A DNA stretch of 50,192 bases, taken from NCBI GenBank assembly GCA_001512915.1, contig LFTC01000021.1, forward strand, positions 2,493 to 52,684, written 5' to 3'. The translations under genes and the position numbers were made by a program. Below the pieces are notes generated by a model that made no database searches, was not told the origin of the DNA, and worked only from the letters and a program-made list of their open reading frames with translations. The stretch is from Clostridiales bacterium DTU083 (GTDB lineage Bacteria > Bacillota > Clostridia > Caldicoprobacterales > DTU083). Shown piece by piece: positions 20,742 through 28,107 of the stretch. The first letter of the stretch is position 1. Each line of letters starts with the position of its first letter.

Positions 20742-22544
20742 TTATTTAAATTCCATATTATCTACGAATACCTCCTGAAAGCCTGCCTTATTTGAGAGTT
20801 CTACATATCCTGTTGCTTTCCGTATTTTTTCAGCGGCTTCCATGAAACCGCCAGACTTTATGACCATCTTGGCTCCGGTTAAAGCAGCATTGCCTATAGA
20901 TATTATCTTCCCCTTACATTCAGCAGGCAGCAATCCAATTCTCATGGCGTGGTACTGGTTGATATAGTTTCCAAAACCGCCGGCTAAATAAACTTTTTCG
21001 ATATCATCATAATTTATATTCATTTCTTCCATCAATATTTGTATTCCTGCGGCAATGGCAGCTTTGGCCAGTTGAATTTCTCGTACATCTTTTTGTGTAA
21101 TAAATATTTGTTTGGCAGCCTTCTCTCCTTCATTAGCGATAACAAAGGAAGGGCTGCCATTATATACACTTATTCTTGAAGCCAAATCTGATGGCAGCTT
21201 ATCCTGAGCTTCTTCACGGGTCACCATGCGTCCAAATGAATCTATAACGCCTGAGTCTAGCATTTGTGCTACCATGTCAACTATACCTGAACCGCATATT
21301 CCAATAGCCGGTTTGTTTCCTATAGTAGTAAAAGACAAACCATTGGGAGTAATATCTATTTTGTTTATTGCCCCACGCACTCCTCCTATACCGCATTGAA
21401 TGTGAGCACCTTCCAGCGCAGGACCTGCAGCTGCTGCACAGGACAGCAAGCCGTCTTTATTTCCCAAAACTATCTCTCCATTGGTGCCAATATCGATTAA
21501 TAGTGAATAACCAGAATTCTCCAACATATTCGTTGCAAGAATGCAGCTAACGGTATCAGCACCGATATAACCAGCAATCATTGGAAGAGAAGTTATTGCG
21601 GCATTGGGATTAGTTTTAATCCCCAGCTCTTTTGCTTGAATTGTGGGGAGATGAGTGGTTACAGGGTTAAAAGGTGAGCATGCAATATTCTCGACTGGCA
21701 TGCCGGCAAATAAATGTATCATTACCGTATTACCCACTAGATTTATGTGATATATATTCTCTGCAGAAATACCGAATTGGCTTTCGAAATAATCAGTCAT
21801 TTTATTTAGTTCATCCAAGAGGAGTTTTTGCAGTTCTTGAAGACCTTTCTTATATTCGATGGTATGCGTTATGCGGGATATAACATCATCTCCAAATGTT
21901 TTTTGTGGATTTAAACTAGTGTAGATGCCAATCTCATCCCCACTGTTCAAATCAATCAAAGTGCCAGCTATTGTAGTAGTACCTATATCTACAGCTGCAC
22001 CATAGAGCATATCAGTTGTATCCCCGCCTTCCAATGCTATTACCGTATTGCCATGGAGCACAGCTGTAACTTTATACGTATTTTCCTTTAAAAGCTGGGC
22101 AAGAGACCGCAACAATTCCAGATCTAGTATCTCAACATCTCCGAGTACCATTTTTAATCTGTCAAAATCACTGGTTTGATCTTTGGTGGTTGGTTTTGGC
22201 AATTCCAGGTATACTTTTCTTACGCATGGCTGCAAAGCAACTTCATAATCACCATCAGTCATAATATTTGCTTCTTCATTCCATGAGTCCGGTATCTCTA
22301 TTTTTAATTCCTCGTTCAACATAGTTTTACATGCCAAGCGCCAGCCAATTTCCCATTCATCCAAACTAATCCCTCTCAAACCAGGATATGGCATTGACAG
22401 TGCATTTTCTCCTTCGAGAACACGAACCCGGCATTTTCCACACACTCCTTTGCCGCCGCATGGGGAAGGAAGAGAATAGCCCTTTTTTCTAAGCCATGTC
22501 AGTAAATTTTCACCATGCTTTACTTCAGTTTTATAGATTTTCAT
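20742..22544 (-). CDS. RACo-like corrinoid-activating ATPase (2Fe-2S ferredoxin plus ASKHA/DUF4445)
   Basis: Predicted to re-reduce inactive Co(II) corrinoid proteins to Co(I) with ATP. It has 600 residues. The N-terminal plant-type ferredoxin domain has cysteines at 29, 35, 38 and 72 (PCGGKGVCGKC and LACK). A linker follows, then an actin-like ASKHA ATPase (GAAVDIGTTTIAG for phosphate binding; LLIDIGTNGEIVLG; VYLAGGFGNYINQYHA). This architecture is that of RACo and related reductive activators. Its start overlaps the preceding glycosyltransferase by 4 bp, although those genes have no obvious link to corrinoids. The likely client, a corrinoid protein, is encoded about 3.5 kb away at 26062-26694. 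The family is confident; the physiological partner is inferred. Confidence 0.88.
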   Translation of the reverse strand: MKIYKTEVKHGENLLTWLRKKGYSLPSPCGGKGVCGKCRVRVLEGENALSMPYPGLRGISLDEWEIGWRLACKTMLNEELKIEIPDSWNEEANIMTDGDYEVALQPCVRKVYLELPKPTTKDQTSDFDRLKMVLGDVEILDLELLRSLAQLLKENTYKVTAVLHGNTVIALEGGDTTDMLYGAAVDIGTTTIAGTLIDLNSGDEIGIYTSLNPQKTFGDDVISRITHTIEYKKGLQELQKLLLDELNKMTDYFESQFGISAENIYHINLVGNTVMIHLFAGMPVENIACSPFNPVTTHLPTIQAKELGIKTNPNAAITSLPMIAGYIGADTVSCILATNMLENSGYSLLIDIGTNGEIVLGNKDGLLSCAAAAGPALEGAHIQCGIGGVRGAINKIDITPNGLSFTTIGNKPAIGICGSGIVDMVAQMLDSGVIDSFGRMVTREEAQDKLPSDLASRISVYNGSPSFVIANEGEKAAKQIFITQKDVREIQLAKAAIAAGIQILMEEMNINYDDIEKVYLAGGFGNYINQYHAMRIGLLPAECKGKIISIGNAALTGAKMVIKSGGFMEAAEKIRKATGYVELSNKAGFQEVFVDNMEFK

Positions 22545-23680
22545 AATGTATTCCCCCTAATAGCTGTTTTCTTTCTAATTATTTCTTTAATTACCAATAT
22601 CGTTTCTTGTATCATTCTATTGTTTGCAAAGGTCTTTTTTATATCTTCCTTAGCTCGACAGCCATATTGTTTTGCCTTTGCCGGATTATCCAATAGAAAT
22701 TGCAAAGCTGTTCGCAGTTCATTTATATCTCCCGGCTCAATTAATATCCCATTTCGTTCATGTGTAATTACTTCTGTAATTCCTCCTGCAGCAGATGCCA
22801 AAACAGGCAAGCCAAAAGACATGGCTTCCAGTATGGTTATGCCCAGTCCTTCAGACAGGGTAGGCAAAACGAATATGTCAAACGCTGAATAATAGTTATG
22901 TATATCAGCAACACTGCCCGTAAAAATTACTTTCGATTCAATTCCAAGTTCAGCAGCCAGCCTTTTTAGCTTTATTTCTTCAGGACCCGAACCTACTATC
23001 ATAAGCCTGATTCCTGGATTTTCATCCAATATGTCAGGCACCGCCTTTAGAAGAATGTCAATTCCTTTAGATGGAATAAGTCTGGCTACGGAGCCAATCA
23101 AAAATTTATCCTTTTCAATATTATAGCTCTTTCTAATCTTTTCTCTGTCAGTTATCGGCCATTCTGAAATTGAATTACGTATTACTTTAAGTTTATTCTT
23201 TTCCAGCCCCATGTTCTCAGTTAAGCTTTTTTTAATGGCATTGGAAACACATATAATTGCATCCGTCTTACCAGCCATCCACTTTTCAAGGCTGTGAATC
23301 AGCTTTCTGGATAATTTGCATCGTCCGTAGGTAACAAAATTATGAACCGTATATAGGCTTAAAACACCAGTGATTAAACAAGCTGCTCTCCCTAACAAAC
23401 CTGCTTTAAATCCATGGCAGTGTAAGATATCTGGTCTATGTTTTTTTATCAAAAAGACAATTCTGCAAAAAACAATAATGTCAGAAATTGGATTGATAGT
23501 TTGGGAGATTTTAAAAGGAATTACATGTATGCCTGCGTCCTCCATTATTCTCTTGCTGCTCTCATTAAAATTGCACAAAGCAATAACGTTTATTCCCTGA
23601 GCAGACAAGCCCTTAGCTAAAGACAAAAAATGGGTTTTCATGCCGCCTTCTGCATCTCTTATAAGTTCCATTACTTTCAC
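22541..23680 (-). CDS. GT4-family glycosyltransferase
   Basis: A 379-residue retaining glycosyltransferase of the GT-B fold. The N-terminal acceptor lobe has LIRDAEGGMKTHFLSLAKGL and LHCHGFKAGLLG. The C-terminal donor lobe has IGSVARLIPSKGIDILLKA and the GT4 signature PTLSEGLGITILEAMSFG (E-x7-E). There is no signal peptide, so it acts on the cytoplasmic face, probably on a lipid or polymer precursor. It is coupled by 4-bp overlaps to the membrane protein upstream (23677-23680) and the RACo-like gene downstream (22541-22544). The sugar donor cannot be told from sequence. Confidence 0.88.
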   Translation of the reverse strand: MKVMELIRDAEGGMKTHFLSLAKGLSAQGINVIALCNFNESSKRIMEDAGIHVIPFKISQTINPISDIIVFCRIVFLIKKHRPDILHCHGFKAGLLGRAACLITGVLSLYTVHNFVTYGRCKLSRKLIHSLEKWMAGKTDAIICVSNAIKKSLTENMGLEKNKLKVIRNSISEWPITDREKIRKSYNIEKDKFLIGSVARLIPSKGIDILLKAVPDILDENPGIRLMIVGSGPEEIKLKRLAAELGIESKVIFTGSVADIHNYYSAFDIFVLPTLSEGLGITILEAMSFGLPVLASAAGGITEVITHERNGILIEPGDINELRTALQFLLDNPAKAKQYGCRAKEDIKKTFANNRMIQETILVIKEIIRKKTAIRGNTL

Positions 23681-25917
23681 TTATCATTTACCTTCCATAG
23701 AATCTTGTTTTCCTTATCCGGCAGGTAATCTATTACAACCAGAATTGCGGACGGCGCAGTATAAATCATGGATGTGCCTGCTGCCACTATCCCGGAATCA
23801 TTTACAATCAACGCAGTTATGCATCCGATTATACCAGCGATAATCCCTTTGAAAAAGAAGGGATGCTTATCTGAAACGGTTCTTAATATACCAACTGGCC
23901 GAAACATTAACAAGGCTATGCTCAGCAATGATAAAAGAAAAACTCTGGTCCAAATGGTATATCGGATCAGCTTGATATTCATCTCAATCTTTCGCTTTAT
24001 AATTAAGAAAAGCTCCATTACACCATTATTTCGAATCAATGACACCGTCTGACCCATATGAGTTTGGATGTTGGCTGGACGGCTGTTGTCCAGGAGGAAT
24101 AAAACAGTTATAAAAACTGCCGTCATAATGCCAACAGTTATCATATGTCTCAATTTGATTTTACCCTGCCAGTTTAATAATATATAGGATGCAGAAGCTG
24201 ACAATATTGAAATTGTGCCCCCTACATTAGCACCTAACATAGGATGGGCCAGCATAATCACAGCTAATAAAAATATTGGAAATATAAACCATACTGAAGT
24301 GTAGCTTTTTTTCATGCTCCATAATTCTCTGACTGAACCTTCCCAAATGCATGCTGCACCTATTATAATACCCATATACTCATTCCCAATGCCGTAAAAA
24401 CGAGCACCGCTTATAATATCATACCCAAGGGGAGATAGTGATATCATTTTTTCGCCAGTCAACTGGTCAATAAACAATAGAAAAACAATTATTGCACATA
24501 TTGTGCTTATTTTTTTAAAAGTATTCTGCTTCCATATATATATGAATCCAGTAAATGACGCAGCAAGCAGCCAGGAAAGAACTAAATTAAATACATAGGC
24601 AGGTCTGTGGAAAAGGGGCATAAGCAAATAAGCTATAGGAACAGACATAATAAAATAAAGAAAAACTCCGGCTTGAGCAGTATATTTCCTGAGGAGAATA
24701 ATACTTAAAAGGGAAGCTGACAGCAGAATAATCAGTACAGCAACATAGCTTCTTAACAAAGAAGCCCGCTGATTATGAACATCTTTTAAACGTTTATTGT
24801 ATTCGAGCAATTCATTTAATTCCATTTTAGTGCCGGTAGAATATATCTTCGAGCCTATTTGCCCGCTATAGGGCAGGATATTATAAAAGCTGAGTATGGT
24901 GGCTCCTATATCCAAATTTGTAATAATTCCAGCCTTTTGAGTGGAAGCTGAAGACAGCAAACCTTTTGCATAGCCTTTGCCGGCTATAATTACCGGGGTT
25001 AGCCGATTATTTTCTGCTAAATCATCAGCAGGTCCTAAAGGAGTTACAATAATAATTACATCCCGTTTAAGGTTAAGTCTTTTCAGCAGTTTCCCAACAA
25101 AAGCATCACTTTCTTTAACTGCTGTCATTTTATAATACTCATTCATCTCATCAACAGCAAAATGTCTGAAATCTTCTGCCCGGGATGTATCTCCTAATTG
25201 TATTGCAAAAACATCGATTGAGTCCCATAGTTGGTTTACTATCTGAATCAATCTATCATAATCCGTACGTATCCCGAAAGGTCTCCTGCTGTCAGAGATC
25301 AAAAAGCTGCCATCTATGCATCCGGCAGGGACTATGCCATTTTCATTCATCATAAGGGATACAAGATAACGCTTATATTCCCCGGGTATATCACAATTTC
25401 CTATAACTGCACAGCGTATTCCTGCCTTCTCCAATGCTGCGCCTAAAGCACCGATAGTTACTGTATATGGCCTTTTATTGTTCATACGAACCGATTGAGG
25501 AAAGCCAAGGTTAACAATTGCTCCTTCAGGAGGCTTATTGCCGGTAAGTTGTAAATATAAATCTCCTGCTCTAGTGCCCAGGACTATCTCATCAACCTGA
25601 AATCCGTATGGTGATCTATCAGAAGCAGCTACCCTCGCGCCTGTTCCCATAGTCAGGTATGCATCTTTTTGTGATCGGCTTCCTCCTGTGTTGGTTGTCA
25701 TTAAAGCAAGCCCGCCTATTTCCAGAATGGAATCTATATGGGGGGTATTTGTCTTTATTAAATCAGTCAAGCTAATGCGGTCAATTACCACCAAAAATGT
25801 TTTACCCATTTCCTCATTTATTGGCTTTCGAACAATTTCATTTTTTTGAAAACCTAAATATAAAAAGAGAAATATAGGAATCAGCAAAAAGAAAGCAACT
25901 TTTTTGATCACACACAT
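23677..25917 (-). CDS. Membrane protein with extracellular alkaline-phosphatase-like domain
   Basis: A 746-residue membrane protein. A signal anchor (VAFFLLIPIFLFLYLGF) leads to an extracellular domain of about 350 residues. The latter resembles the alkaline phosphatase/sulfatase superfamily: FLVVIDRISLTDL near the start, a TMGTGARVAASDRSPYG block, and VIIIVTPLGPADDLAENNRLTP near its end where metal ligands would lie. The second half has around ten membrane segments. The listed ATG has GGGAG only 3 bp upstream; the GTG at 25911 has better spacing and may be the true start. It is first in a three-gene operon with a glycosyltransferase and the RACo-like gene. A cell-envelope glycopolymer role is plausible but unproven. 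Confidence 0.72.
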   Translation of the reverse strand: MCVIKKVAFFLLIPIFLFLYLGFQKNEIVRKPINEEMGKTFLVVIDRISLTDLIKTNTPHIDSILEIGGLALMTTNTGGSRSQKDAYLTMGTGARVAASDRSPYGFQVDEIVLGTRAGDLYLQLTGNKPPEGAIVNLGFPQSVRMNNKRPYTVTIGALGAALEKAGIRCAVIGNCDIPGEYKRYLVSLMMNENGIVPAGCIDGSFLISDSRRPFGIRTDYDRLIQIVNQLWDSIDVFAIQLGDTSRAEDFRHFAVDEMNEYYKMTAVKESDAFVGKLLKRLNLKRDVIIIVTPLGPADDLAENNRLTPVIIAGKGYAKGLLSSASTQKAGIITNLDIGATILSFYNILPYSGQIGSKIYSTGTKMELNELLEYNKRLKDVHNQRASLLRSYVAVLIILLSASLLSIILLRKYTAQAGVFLYFIMSVPIAYLLMPLFHRPAYVFNLVLSWLLAASFTGFIYIWKQNTFKKISTICAIIVFLLFIDQLTGEKMISLSPLGYDIISGARFYGIGNEYMGIIIGAACIWEGSVRELWSMKKSYTSVWFIFPIFLLAVIMLAHPMLGANVGGTISILSASASYILLNWQGKIKLRHMITVGIMTAVFITVLFLLDNSRPANIQTHMGQTVSLIRNNGVMELFLIIKRKIEMNIKLIRYTIWTRVFLLSLLSIALLMFRPVGILRTVSDKHPFFFKGIIAGIIGCITALIVNDSGIVAAGTSMIYTAPSAILVVIDYLPDKENKILWKVNDK

Positions 25918-25984
25918 TTACTCCCTTATTCTACTGCTTTCTAAATTGTTCCCATATTTCTCCCTTCCATGCAAAGTAAAAATT

Positions 25985-26008
25985 AAGCATCTGAAAGTAC
26001 AGATGCTT
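25985..26008. terminator. Bidirectional-looking terminator after the corrinoid protein gene
   Basis: AAGCATCTG (25985-25993) pairs perfectly with CAGATGCTT (26000-26008) around a 6-base loop. T-rich sequence lies on both sides. Its placement after the corrinoid protein stop (26062) and before the next leftward gene suggests it ends the corrinoid transcript. Confidence 0.75.
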
Positions 26009-26061
26009 TTTCTGATGATAATAAATACCAAAATTTTATGTATGAATTGCCATTAACTTAT

Positions 26062-26694
26062 TCAGGAAACTAATTCTTTTGCCAGCTCTGCTGCTGATGC
26101 AGCATCGGGAGCATAACCGTCTGCACCAATTTCGTTGGCAAAACTCTGTGTTACAGGAGCTCCTCCTACCATAATTTTTATCTGATCTCTCAGACCTGCC
26201 GCTTTAAATGCTTCAATAGTTTCTTTCATGGCTGGCATGGTAGTGGTTAGGAGAGCAGATAAGCCGACACATTCAACTTCATTTTCTTTAATAGCTTCTA
26301 TGAATTTCTCGGGCGGAACATCAATACCCAGATCTATTACGTTGAAACCTGCACCTTCCAGCATCATGCCTACCAGGTTTTTACCAATATCATGAAGATC
26401 CCCTTTTACTGTTCCCAAAACTACTGTACCAATGGGTTTTACATCTTTTTCCACCAAGAGCGGTTTAATAATTTCCATTCCCGCCTTCATGGCTCTTGCT
26501 GCAATCAAAACTTCAGGGACATAAACCTCATTGTTTTTAAACAACACACCTATTTCACTCATCCCGACTATTAAGGCATCGTTTAGTATTTCTGTAGGTT
26601 CAACGCCTTCATCTAAAGCAGCTTGTACCAATTCCTTCACCTTAGGCGCGTTACCTGCTTTCAAAAAATCAGCAATTTCTCTTAAGTTAGCCAT
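26062..26694 (-). CDS. Methyltransferase-type corrinoid protein (B12-binding, MtaC/MttC/MtbC-like)
   Basis: A cytoplasmic cobalamin carrier that shuttles a methyl group between a substrate-specific methyltransferase and an acceptor. It has 210 residues. An N-terminal helical cap (about 1-88) is followed by a Rossmann B12 domain with the cobalt-ligating motif D99-x-H101-x-x-G104 (GDLHDIGKNL) and the lower-ligand loops SALLTTTMP and VGGAPVTQSFA. No MtaB, MttB, MtbB or MtrH methyltransferase is in the window, so its substrate is unknown. A PocR/AraC regulator gene lies 99 bp upstream on the same strand. A RACo-like activator is encoded nearby. Confidence 0.92.
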   Translation of the reverse strand: MANLREIADFLKAGNAPKVKELVQAALDEGVEPTEILNDALIVGMSEIGVLFKNNEVYVPEVLIAARAMKAGMEIIKPLLVEKDVKPIGTVVLGTVKGDLHDIGKNLVGMMLEGAGFNVIDLGIDVPPEKFIEAIKENEVECVGLSALLTTTMPAMKETIEAFKAAGLRDQIKIMVGGAPVTQSFANEIGADGYAPDAASAAELAKELVS

Positions 26695-26728
26695 TATCTT
26701 TTCCTCCTCTATCTGCTAGGTTACAATT

Positions 26729-26757
26729 ATTTTAACATAGCAAGATATTTCTGTCTC
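26729..26757 (-). promoter_or_regulatory. Candidate promoter of the corrinoid protein gene
   Basis: On the minus strand, GAGACA (26752-26757), 17-bp spacer, TAAAAT (26729-26734), about 35 bp before the ATG. It lies inside an inverted repeat (AGCAAGAT at 26739-26746 and ATCTTGCT at 26784-26791) that could be a regulator site. Confidence 0.45.
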
Positions 26758-26791
26758 TATTTGTTATTGTGAATAATGGTAAAATCTTGCT
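26739..26791. repeat. Inverted repeat flanking the corrinoid gene promoter
   Basis: AGCAAGAT at 26739-26746 and its exact complement ATCTTGCT at 26784-26791, separated by 37 bp. The pair lies entirely in the gap between the AraC-type regulator gene and the corrinoid protein gene. Two separated half-sites are the usual form of AraC-family operators, but the same sequence could instead form a weak hairpin after the regulator gene. Confidence 0.45.
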
Positions 26792-26793
26792 AA

Positions 26794-28107
26794 CTAACTC
26801 ATAGATGTTTGCTTGCGATATTGGCTGGGAGATACTCCTATATTTTTTTTGAATACCTTGCTGAAATAACCTGGATCATCATAACCTATACGTAAAGAAA
26901 TGTCCAATATAGTAAGGCTTCTGTCCATCAATAGTTTTTTGGCCTCTTCCATCCGAATGCGGGTAAGGTACTCTAGAAAAGTAATGCCTAGCTCTTCTTT
27001 AAACAAATGGCTTAGATAATAAGGACTTATATATATTTTTTCAGCCACGTTTTCTAAAGATAGTTTTTCATGGTAGTTTTCGCGGATATATTGAATTGCT
27101 TCTTCCAGTAGTTTTGAGTTTTTGATGCTTCTTGCTTCATATACCGTATCCAAAAAGGTATCCAATACTTTAACTATCCAAAAACATACATCTTCAAATT
27201 TGTTCTTTGAGGCCAGCTCACTGATAAAACTGTAATTAAGTCCCAATAATTTGTCTAATTTTGCTCCTCCTTCTACAGCTGCTCTGGAAATGACAACAAC
27301 CAGCTCCAGAACACGTGCCTTTATCAACTCAATATTTCCTGAAGTATGAAGAAAGATAACCGCCAAAAGTTCATTCAATATCTTTTTGGCTCCCTGGCGG
27401 TCTCCCATTCTAACCCTGTTTAACAGCTCATTTTCTTTTTCCATCGGGTATTCTTCATGTTTGACTCTCTCTTCAAGGTAACGAATGCGTTCTTCAGCCT
27501 TCTTTTGTTTAAATATCAATTCGGCAAGTTTTGATTGCTGTTCACTGAGTTCTCTTCTTTGCTGAAGAGTGATTATGTTTGATTTGGCAAAATGGTTGGC
27601 TGTAATAAACAGCAACTCGGCAGCTGCCTGAACATTTCTACCGTTTAATACCTTAATTTTCCGGCTGGCAGCTAACAAAGCTTCCCTATTTATGTTTAAA
27701 TCAGATGTACGGTTTAAAAATTCCTGTATAGCAATTTCATCCCATTCCCACATAAGAACTGGACCACATGAAATGCTGCCCAAGTACAAATCTTTAAAAA
27801 CAATTGGTGCAGCAAACTCTATCAGCCCGGCATGGCATCGGCTGATATAAGGTTCCCCTAACTGAGCAGCAAGCTTACCTGCTTTATGCTTTGACTCCGT
27901 GCAGCGTTTTCGTCCCACTGGGTCACTGCGTATTATTTTACAAAAATTACAAAATCCCTCATGCTCTTCGGGAAAAATAACAGATTCTCCCTGAGCATTT
28001 ACACACATTGCTCCCAGACCGGTTGCCAATACAAAAGAATTAAGCAGTCTTTTCATTTCGTCTATATCAATAATTTCTTCAAGACGAATATTATTTAATT
28101 CCTGCAT
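26794..28107 (-). CDS. AraC-family regulator with PocR sensory domain
   Basis: Transcription regulator of 437 residues. The N-terminal PocR-type ligand domain (about 12-175) carries the characteristic cysteines: Cys53 and Cys56 in GFCNFC, Cys69 in RKRCTESK and Cys91 in ISRCHAG. A coiled-coil linker follows (about 185-230). The C-terminal AraC DNA-binding domain has two helix-turn-helix units (LENVAEKIYISPYYLSHLFK and TILDISLRIGYDDPGYFSKV). A GGGAGG ribosome binding site precedes the ATG. PocR in Salmonella responds to propanediol, and related proteins often neighbour B12-dependent pathways. Control of the corrinoid gene just downstream is a strong contextual inference. Confidence 0.88.
   Translation of the reverse strand: MQELNNIRLEEIIDIDEMKRLLNSFVLATGLGAMCVNAQGESVIFPEEHEGFCNFCKIIRSDPVGRKRCTESKHKAGKLAAQLGEPYISRCHAGLIEFAAPIVFKDLYLGSISCGPVLMWEWDEIAIQEFLNRTSDLNINREALLAASRKIKVLNGRNVQAAAELLFITANHFAKSNIITLQQRRELSEQQSKLAELIFKQKKAEERIRYLEERVKHEEYPMEKENELLNRVRMGDRQGAKKILNELLAVIFLHTSGNIELIKARVLELVVVISRAAVEGGAKLDKLLGLNYSFISELASKNKFEDVCFWIVKVLDTFLDTVYEARSIKNSKLLEEAIQYIRENYHEKLSLENVAEKIYISPYYLSHLFKEELGITFLEYLTRIRMEEAKKLLMDRSLTILDISLRIGYDDPGYFSKVFKKNIGVSPSQYRKQTSMS

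Follow-up and report, generated by a model that had tools for sequence, protein, structure and literature searches.

In the 50,192-nucleotide stretch of DNA from Clostridiales bacterium DTU083 analyzed here (the whole stretch is called the window), a stand-alone corrinoid (B12) methyl carrier, a RACo-like reductive activator of corrinoid proteins and a regulator with a PocR sensory domain and an AraC-type helix-turn-helix are encoded close to each other. The window lies on contig C46 of a 1.9 Mb draft genome (84 contigs, 89.4% complete). We consider it probable that these genes form one inducible carrier/activator hub that serves several methyltransferases, in other words the common core of a corrinoid methyl-transfer system whose parts are dispersed. 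The gene content, the conserved residues, the gene order in relatives, the operator statistics and the finding that the draft genome has a single carrier and a single RACo come directly from computation, and 30 genomes of the order were examined.

The three core genes lie on the minus strand. The carrier gene (26062-26694) encodes a 210-amino acid protein, in which Pfam recognizes B12-binding_2 (2e-21) and B12-binding (1e-31) domains and for which the nearest solved structure in a PDB search is 1y80 (5e-74). It possesses the motif DLHDIG, and DxHxxG was present in all 24 carriers examined. Among carriers with a named source, those of uncultured Clostridiales, Caldicoprobacter and Mahella are the nearest. 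The RACo-like protein (20742-22544; 600 amino acids) possesses Fer2, RACo_linker, Raco_middle and RACo_C_ter (7e-78) domains, and its nearest solved structure is 3zyy (4e-101). Four N-terminal cysteines, which we take to be the [2Fe-2S] ligands, are present in all 13 RACo proteins examined. The regulator gene (26794-28107; 437 amino acids) combines PocR (1e-45) and HTH_18 domains in Pfam. Because the NCBIfam scores are under the cut-offs, the names MtgC and MtbC (227 against 370 bits and 209 against 350 bits for the carrier) and AcsV (NF040756; 445 against 800 bits for the RACo-like protein) should not be given; the carrier is also narrowly under the cut-off of the broader TIGR02370 (210.7 against 215.3 bits). 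The coordinates of the open reading frames (ORFs) and Pfam confirm the preliminary description of this DNA, which had placed the three genes here and had noticed that no methyltransferase is among them: the two intervening ORFs encode a GT4 glycosyltransferase and a membrane protein.

The window carrier is the sole B12-binding_2 match in the genome (E up to 1), and the window protein is the sole RACo_C_ter match (E up to 0.001). The preliminary description had stated what would make these genes unrelated, namely a complete methyltransferase set at another place in the genome that has a carrier and an activator to itself; given the single carrier and activator, no such set was found in the 89% complete genome. 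It had also proposed a search for genes of the MttB, MtaB and MtrH type. The genome-wide search was run for MttB and gave no MTTB match, MtaB, MtbB and MtrH being outside its scope; an MttB-type partner is unsupported in this genome, and MTTB was found in only 2 of the 30 genomes of the order. A MetE-type methionine synthase was likewise rejected as a candidate (PF01717 in 0 of 30). It is very improbable that these counts reflect an assembly gap, with the missing tenth of the genome encoding either a second carrier reserved for the other methyltransferases or a methyltransferase that serves the window carrier. The completeness and the number of contigs given above leave room for this; in contrast, exactly one B12-binding_2 match and one RACo_C_ter match were found in each of G008 (96% complete, same genus), G009, G010, G013, G014 and G017 (91-96%, same family) and the single-contig genome G016 (97%).

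Three candidate clients are encoded on other contigs. The first, on C76, is a 557-amino acid protein that combines a homocysteine S-methyltransferase domain with a pterin-binding domain and lacks a B12 domain (hereafter, half-MetH). Its best solved match is the Thermotoga maritima MetH fragment 1q7m, and it is not a full-length MetH, in which a B12 domain is fused to the homocysteine and folate modules. The second, on C16, is a 266-amino acid methyl-tetrahydrofolate:corrinoid methyltransferase (MeTr), which is the last gene product in a MetF-EtfB-EtfA-MeTr run. In the genome, two good pterin-binding matches and six URO-D matches were found, all outside the window's contig C46. One of these six, UroD6 on C52, is the third candidate, an MtaA-like URO-D methyltransferase. 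Its HxC...C site was present in 12 of 12 sequences, and a His-Cys-Cys site is a mark of sulfur or selenium methyltransferases (PMC10418091; here and below, statements on cited papers refer to the parts of them that were covered). The best match of the UroD6 model (predicted local distance difference test score, pLDDT, 80.3) was methyltransferase 4ay7/4ay8 (Z 35.2, root-mean-square deviation 2.7-2.8, 330-332 residues aligned), followed by URO-D decarboxylases (Z 32.7). As modeled, UroD6 thus appears to have the URO-D fold with the HxC...C site of MtaA and CmuA; its score for TIGR01463 was under the NCBIfam cut-off (108 against 235 bits). The candidates for a three-component system (UroD6, carrier and MeTr) are therefore all in the genome. 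They are not encoded together in it (C52, C46 and C16), and pairs of them stand together only in relatives. Judging from their domains, the candidate partners are different in kind from the enzymes named in the preliminary description.

The neighborhood map of relatives covers 64 of 80 carrier loci (at the other 16, the carrier gene was masked by the ORF filter), and the labels of the cluster genes were checked by Pfam. The order PocR-carrier-membrane gene-GT4-RACo is kept in the window and in five genomes of its family (G008, G009, G011, G013 and G014), and among the mapped loci PocR or RACo adjoins such carriers in several phyla. Both observations stand against the explanation that the RACo, carrier and PocR genes are functionally unrelated and are neighbors by chance. 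We find this explanation hardly credible, although two cell-envelope-like genes and a terminator-like hairpin lie between the carrier and RACo. In other relatives, the candidate clients enter the cluster. At locus L015, a UroD6 relative (79% identical) is placed between PocR and the carrier. At L018 and L019, MeTr occupies this place, and at L018 formate-tetrahydrofolate ligase, a cyclodeaminase-family protein and FolD come next. At L048, MetF-EtfB-EtfA-MeTr follows PocR-carrier. In the sister family, half-MetH precedes the membrane gene and GT4 in six genomes (G001, G002, G003, G004, G005 and G007). It lies directly 3' of the carrier in G007, is separated from it by two opposite-strand genes in G003 and by about 26 kb in G002, and is on a different contig in G001, G004 and G005. 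In the window's family, half-MetH comes after CbiM, CbiQ and an ABC ATPase and before adk (G000, G009, G011 and G015). Thus, as the orders in L015, L018/L019, L048 and G007/G003 show, each dispersed client is found inside the PocR-carrier cluster in some relative.

The core and part of the candidate clients may also share an operator. Carrier upstream regions have a GCAAGATTTTACC-N-TCACAA-like sequence in common. From comparison of upstream regions, a matrix and repeat statistics, a putative PocR operator was placed at 26758-26790 (minus strand) in the window, with the half-site GCAAGATTTTACC at 26790-26778 and a weak second copy 20 bp further on (6 of 13 positions). The element is a direct repeat of RCAAGATNNTAC-like half-sites with a 20-bp period: in 11 sites, a mean of 8.5 of 13 positions matched at offset 20, against 2.5-5.0 at twelve other offsets between 14 and 26. 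The repeat match was 12 of 13 in two sites of the Caldicoprobacter family. We then scored the 80 loci for a half-site with at most one mismatch upstream of the carrier. It was found at 18 of the 25 loci where PocR lies directly upstream and at 2 of the 55 where it does not; among the former, it was present at 18 of 18 loci where PocR is at least about 41% identical and at 0 of 7 where PocR is 30-40% identical. Because the operator follows the close relatives of PocR, the distribution points to PocR as the binder of the predicted operator.

The matrix was trained on 15 carrier sites only and was applied to 603 upstream regions, with 389 unlabelled regions as controls. UroD6 upstream regions (12) scored above the controls (p = 3.6e-7; 4 of 12 above the control 99% level), also without G019 (11 regions, p = 1.5e-6), and 9 of 12 had p < 0.05 against their own shuffles, compared with 6 of 98 sampled controls. 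Three of four MetF upstream regions passed both by the 99% level and by shuffles (p = 0.009 against controls). MeTr upstream regions did not pass (0 of 9); in five of these genomes, MeTr is downstream of EtfA. Within the 185,530 bases of the window's genome that were analyzed, there are two copies of the exact half-site RCAAGATNNTAC, one before the carrier and one before MetF, and UroD6 in this genome has a one-mismatch half-site at the position that matches the site of its relatives. Half-site counts were 10/19 for the carrier, 6/12 for UroD6, 4/4 for MetF, 1/18 for RACo, 0/21 for half-MetH and its relatives and 3/389 for controls. Because the half-site consensus was drawn after the sites had been viewed, this count only illustrates the result, and we relied on the matrix test. 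Together, these comparative results support both options raised in the preliminary description, a methyl donor enzyme encoded at another place and a carrier used by several methyltransferases. In Caldicoprobacter (L173:8737-10095 and L025), an opposite-strand URO-D gene near the carrier also has an operator-like element upstream. Because of this element, the gene may be a further member of the regulon.

The position of half-MetH is central to two alternatives to the shared hub. In the first, the carrier would work only in an inducible methylotrophic pathway, with UroD6 as methyltransferase I, MeTr as methyltransferase II and MetF/Etf oxidizing methyl-folate, and half-MetH would use another B12 source or be inactive. 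The operator common to the carrier, UroD6 and MetF, the placement of UroD6 or MeTr inside the cluster in relatives, and known three-component systems of like build, for example Cdm (PMC13222342), speak for this alternative. We regard it as unlikely: the three zinc cysteines are all kept in 16 of 16 half-MetH proteins, the sister family has half-MetH within the cluster or close to it, and the genome search yielded no second B12-binding_2 module. In the second alternative, which we judge to be quite unlikely, the carrier is the detached B12 module of a split methionine synthase composed of half-MetH, carrier and RACo, as in Phaeobacter (PMC5764234), and UroD6 and MeTr are side issues. The adjacency in G007, the closeness in G003, the same lack of another B12-binding_2 match in the genome and the lack of a MetE-type match in the 30 genomes fit this alternative, for which the Phaeobacter system is a precedent. 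The PocR-type switch does not, nor does the operator, which was found at UroD6 and MetF and not at half-MetH; moreover, the carrier is kept in four genomes (G013, G014, G016 and G017) without a homocysteine methyltransferase match.

The folate module of half-MetH was compared at eight positions (N323, D358, N360, D390, N411, D473, N508 and R516 in T. maritima numbering), which we take to be the ones that matter for folate. In the window's genome, two of eight are changed in half-MetH (D390 to S and N508 to D), whereas all eight are kept in MeTr. The comparison, which covers part of the G008 protein and leaves out the half-MetH of G004, G006 and G012, gave changed folate modules in nine genomes and intact modules in eight; the readable part in G008, from the window's genus, is intact. 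For the 21 pairs that seven intact proteins form, the ratio of folate-module identity to homocysteine-module identity was 0.79-0.95; when half-MetH of the window's genome was compared with the same seven, it was 0.71-0.81. By this measure, the folate module is diverging faster where it is changed.

Several observations weigh against the shared hub. Changed folate modules were more frequent where another pterin module is present, but a tie between the two was tested and did not reach significance (7 of 9 against 3 of 8, p = 0.15), with G005 and G007 as the exceptions. None of 21 upstream regions of half-MetH (17) and related Hcy-MTHFR proteins (4) was above the control 99% level, and 1 of 21 passed by shuffles. 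Therefore, the tie of half-MetH to the carrier rests on synteny in the sister family and on the lack of another B12 module. For MetF of the window's own genome, the upstream region scores only -9.4 with the matrix and does not pass (shuffle p 0.50), despite its exact half-site. RACo was rejected as a regulon member (1 of 18 upstream regions passed), although it is often inside an operon. Furthermore, the 18 PocR loci that have the operator are not independent, since the window's order contributes 13 of them and only 5 are from elsewhere.

The distribution of the genes is similarly mixed. A stand-alone carrier was present in 20 of 20 genomes with half-MetH and in 6 of 10 others (p = 0.0077). 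In this count, pieces at contig ends were included (half-MetH in G004, G006 and G008; carrier in G024), and the carrier pieces of G027 were taken as parts of a MetH. Also to be set on the opposing side, p rises to 0.074 when G018 and G027 are removed. UroD6 relatives (at least 55% identity) were found in 13 of 30 genomes, all of which have the carrier, yet p was 0.11; MeTr co-occurred with UroD6 in 8 of 11 against 5 of 19 genomes (p = 0.023). Some genomes outside the window's genus have two B12-binding_2 matches. G013, G014, G016 and G017 possess carrier and RACo and have no homocysteine methyltransferase match; the families searched were S-methyl_trans (PF02574) and MetE-type (PF01717), and neither gave a match in G013, G014 and G017. 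These last three possess UroD6. Because of this combination and the His-Cys-Cys site, we considered whether UroD6 transfers methyl groups from the methyl-corrinoid to homocysteine and would thus be a methionine synthase of a new kind, derived from MtaA and acting together with the window carrier. This reading is very doubtful, and the three organisms may simply need external methionine. G016 also lacks UroD6 and pterin-binding matches, so that its carrier has no nameable client. In this single-contig genome (L158:6414-8283), RACo is in two overlapping ORFs and half-MetH was not found; perhaps the system is decaying there. Finally, a stand-alone protein of 230-260 amino acids, encoded on C65 (L093:1039-1728) and in G016 (L158:10440-11213), where it directly follows the carrier, resembles the MetH activation domain (PF02965) only at the end of that domain. 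PF02965 matches were found in 22 of 30 genomes. From this weak likeness, the C65 protein could share the task of reactivation.

On balance, we continue to favor the shared hub, in which physical docking, the direction of methyl flow, the UroD6 substrate, PocR binding and RACo action on the window carrier are matters of inference. In this model, the core would consist of the carrier, RACo as ATP-dependent reactivase and PocR/AraC as inducible activator, one of each, and client methyltransferases encoded elsewhere would dock on the window carrier. PocR would sense a small molecule and then activate the carrier gene, UroD6 and MetF-EtfB-EtfA-MeTr. UroD6 would be a URO-D-fold, His-Cys-Cys methyltransferase related to MtaA, and methyl groups would pass between its substrate, the carrier and tetrahydrofolate in either direction, while MetF/Etf would connect methyl-folate to methylene-folate. 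The window carrier would also be the missing B12 module of half-MetH, where the methyl-Co(III)-carrier would methylate homocysteine. Carriers that have slipped to Co(II) would be re-reduced by RACo. Joint induction of the carrier, UroD6 and MetF-Etf-MeTr by PocR suggests an inducible pathway between the UroD6 methyl substrate and methyl-folate.

Moorella Mtv is a three-component methyltransferase with a URO-D-superfamily methyltransferase I. OdmB and VdmB O-demethylases are classed likewise (PMC10418091), and Cdm is a three-component system encoded in a single gene cluster, cdmBCA (PMC13222342). As in these systems, candidates for methyltransferase I, carrier, methyltransferase II and an activating enzyme exist here. 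Unlike those of Cdm, they are spread over different contigs, apparently with a single carrier in common. In type 1 mlp gene clusters, at least the Mlp2 and Mlp3 genes stand beside the carrier (PMC10418091). The likeness to them lies in MtaA-like proteins with a His-Cys-Cys site, a carrier and a Ram/RACE activator; in contrast to these clusters, none of the URO-D genes is on the window's contig, and no Mlp2/Mlp3 pair stands beside the carrier.

The methionine synthase of Phaeobacter inhibens is split into three separate modules and has a RamA-like DUF4445 reactivase (PMC5764234). The counterparts found here are the stand-alone carrier, a B12-less homocysteine module with zinc cysteines, a conserved pterin module and a RACo/DUF4445 activator; the conserved pterin module is MeTr and not the folate module of half-MetH itself. 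As in Phaeobacter, the B12 module is on its own protein, with a RACo/RamA-like activator, and the parts are not all encoded together. Unlike in Phaeobacter, the homocysteine and folate modules are still fused, the folate part is changed at key positions in this genome and a separate MeTr is present. PocR regulation and the MetF-Etf-MeTr operon are features of the present system that do not appear in the portion of that account considered here. The MtgBCDE hub of Ruegeria pomeroyi, in which one carrier joins a demethylase to methionine synthesis and RamA activates (PMC12478193), resembles our proposal that one carrier joins a methyltransferase to methionine synthesis. However, the Ruegeria enzyme is a pfam06253/MTTB betaine demethylase from a marine organism, whereas here no MTTB match was found, the methyltransferase candidate is an MtaA-like URO-D protein and the lineage is Clostridia.

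The remaining features of the cluster are also on the minus strand. The GT4 glycosyltransferase gene (22541-23680; Pfam) overlaps its neighbors by 4 bases, and the membrane protein gene (23677-25917; 746 amino acids) has no Pfam match; the positions of both are conserved. To our knowledge, no role of a GT4 glycosyltransferase in methyl transfer has been described. In its model (pLDDT 71.6; Foldseek best E 1.7e-5, template modeling score 0.23/0.46), the N-terminal part of the membrane protein weakly resembles the alkaline-phosphatase superfamily (PH0037, LtaS and YejM). From these features, neither looks like a methyltransferase. A terminator-like hairpin lies between the carrier and the downstream genes (25985-26008), and a promoter-like site of the carrier gene, GAGACA-17-TAAAAT, at 26729-26757 (9 of 12 matches). 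Given this pair, the carrier gene may form its own transcript. The region contains 5 such hairpins against 1.8 expected and 8 promoter-like sites against 7.0 expected; because shuffles give similar numbers, the promoter-like site is weak alone. In a search for RNA switches at Rfam gathering scores, only one tRNA was found in the window, and only tRNA and a TPP riboswitch, distant from the genes of interest, in eight retrieved stretches.

Other URO-D proteins of this genome were also observed on C16. In the region L097:12095-16848, UroD7, in which the third zinc ligand is His, is encoded beside genes for nucleoside phosphorylase, inosine-uridine nucleoside hydrolase, MFS and ECF transporters. 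From this neighborhood, it could be a demethylase of methylated nucleosides (e.g. 2'-O-methyl) that uses the window carrier; no paper on such an enzyme was found among titles and abstract openings. Two further URO-D proteins (L095:1830-9218), with His or Asn as third ligand, are among D-lyxose isomerase, PfkB kinase, ROK and sugar-type ABC transporter genes and are possibly methyl-sugar demethylases. A 56% identical relative of one of them, UroD10, is the second gene after a carrier in L083.

Genes of corrinoid methyltransferases are usually recognized through clustering. Because the core here is apart from its likely clients, annotation by neighborhood labels it an orphan. The concept of a shared carrier is already known in marine Proteobacteria; what is new here is a variant in an anaerobic-type lineage. 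It adds the Clostridia lineage, an MtaA-like client where the known hub has an MttB enzyme, a folate half with changed residues and a predicted operator linking the core with clients. No description of this cluster or operator was found in the open-licence literature (titles and abstract openings), and a 2026 paper states that the regulation of many methyltransferase systems in Acetobacterium dehalogenans is largely unexplored (PMC13222342). The predicted operator would be a handle for finding clients by regulon. Moreover, half-MetH, whose folate module is intact in some close relatives and changed in others, provides a natural experiment on a fused methionine synthase coming apart.

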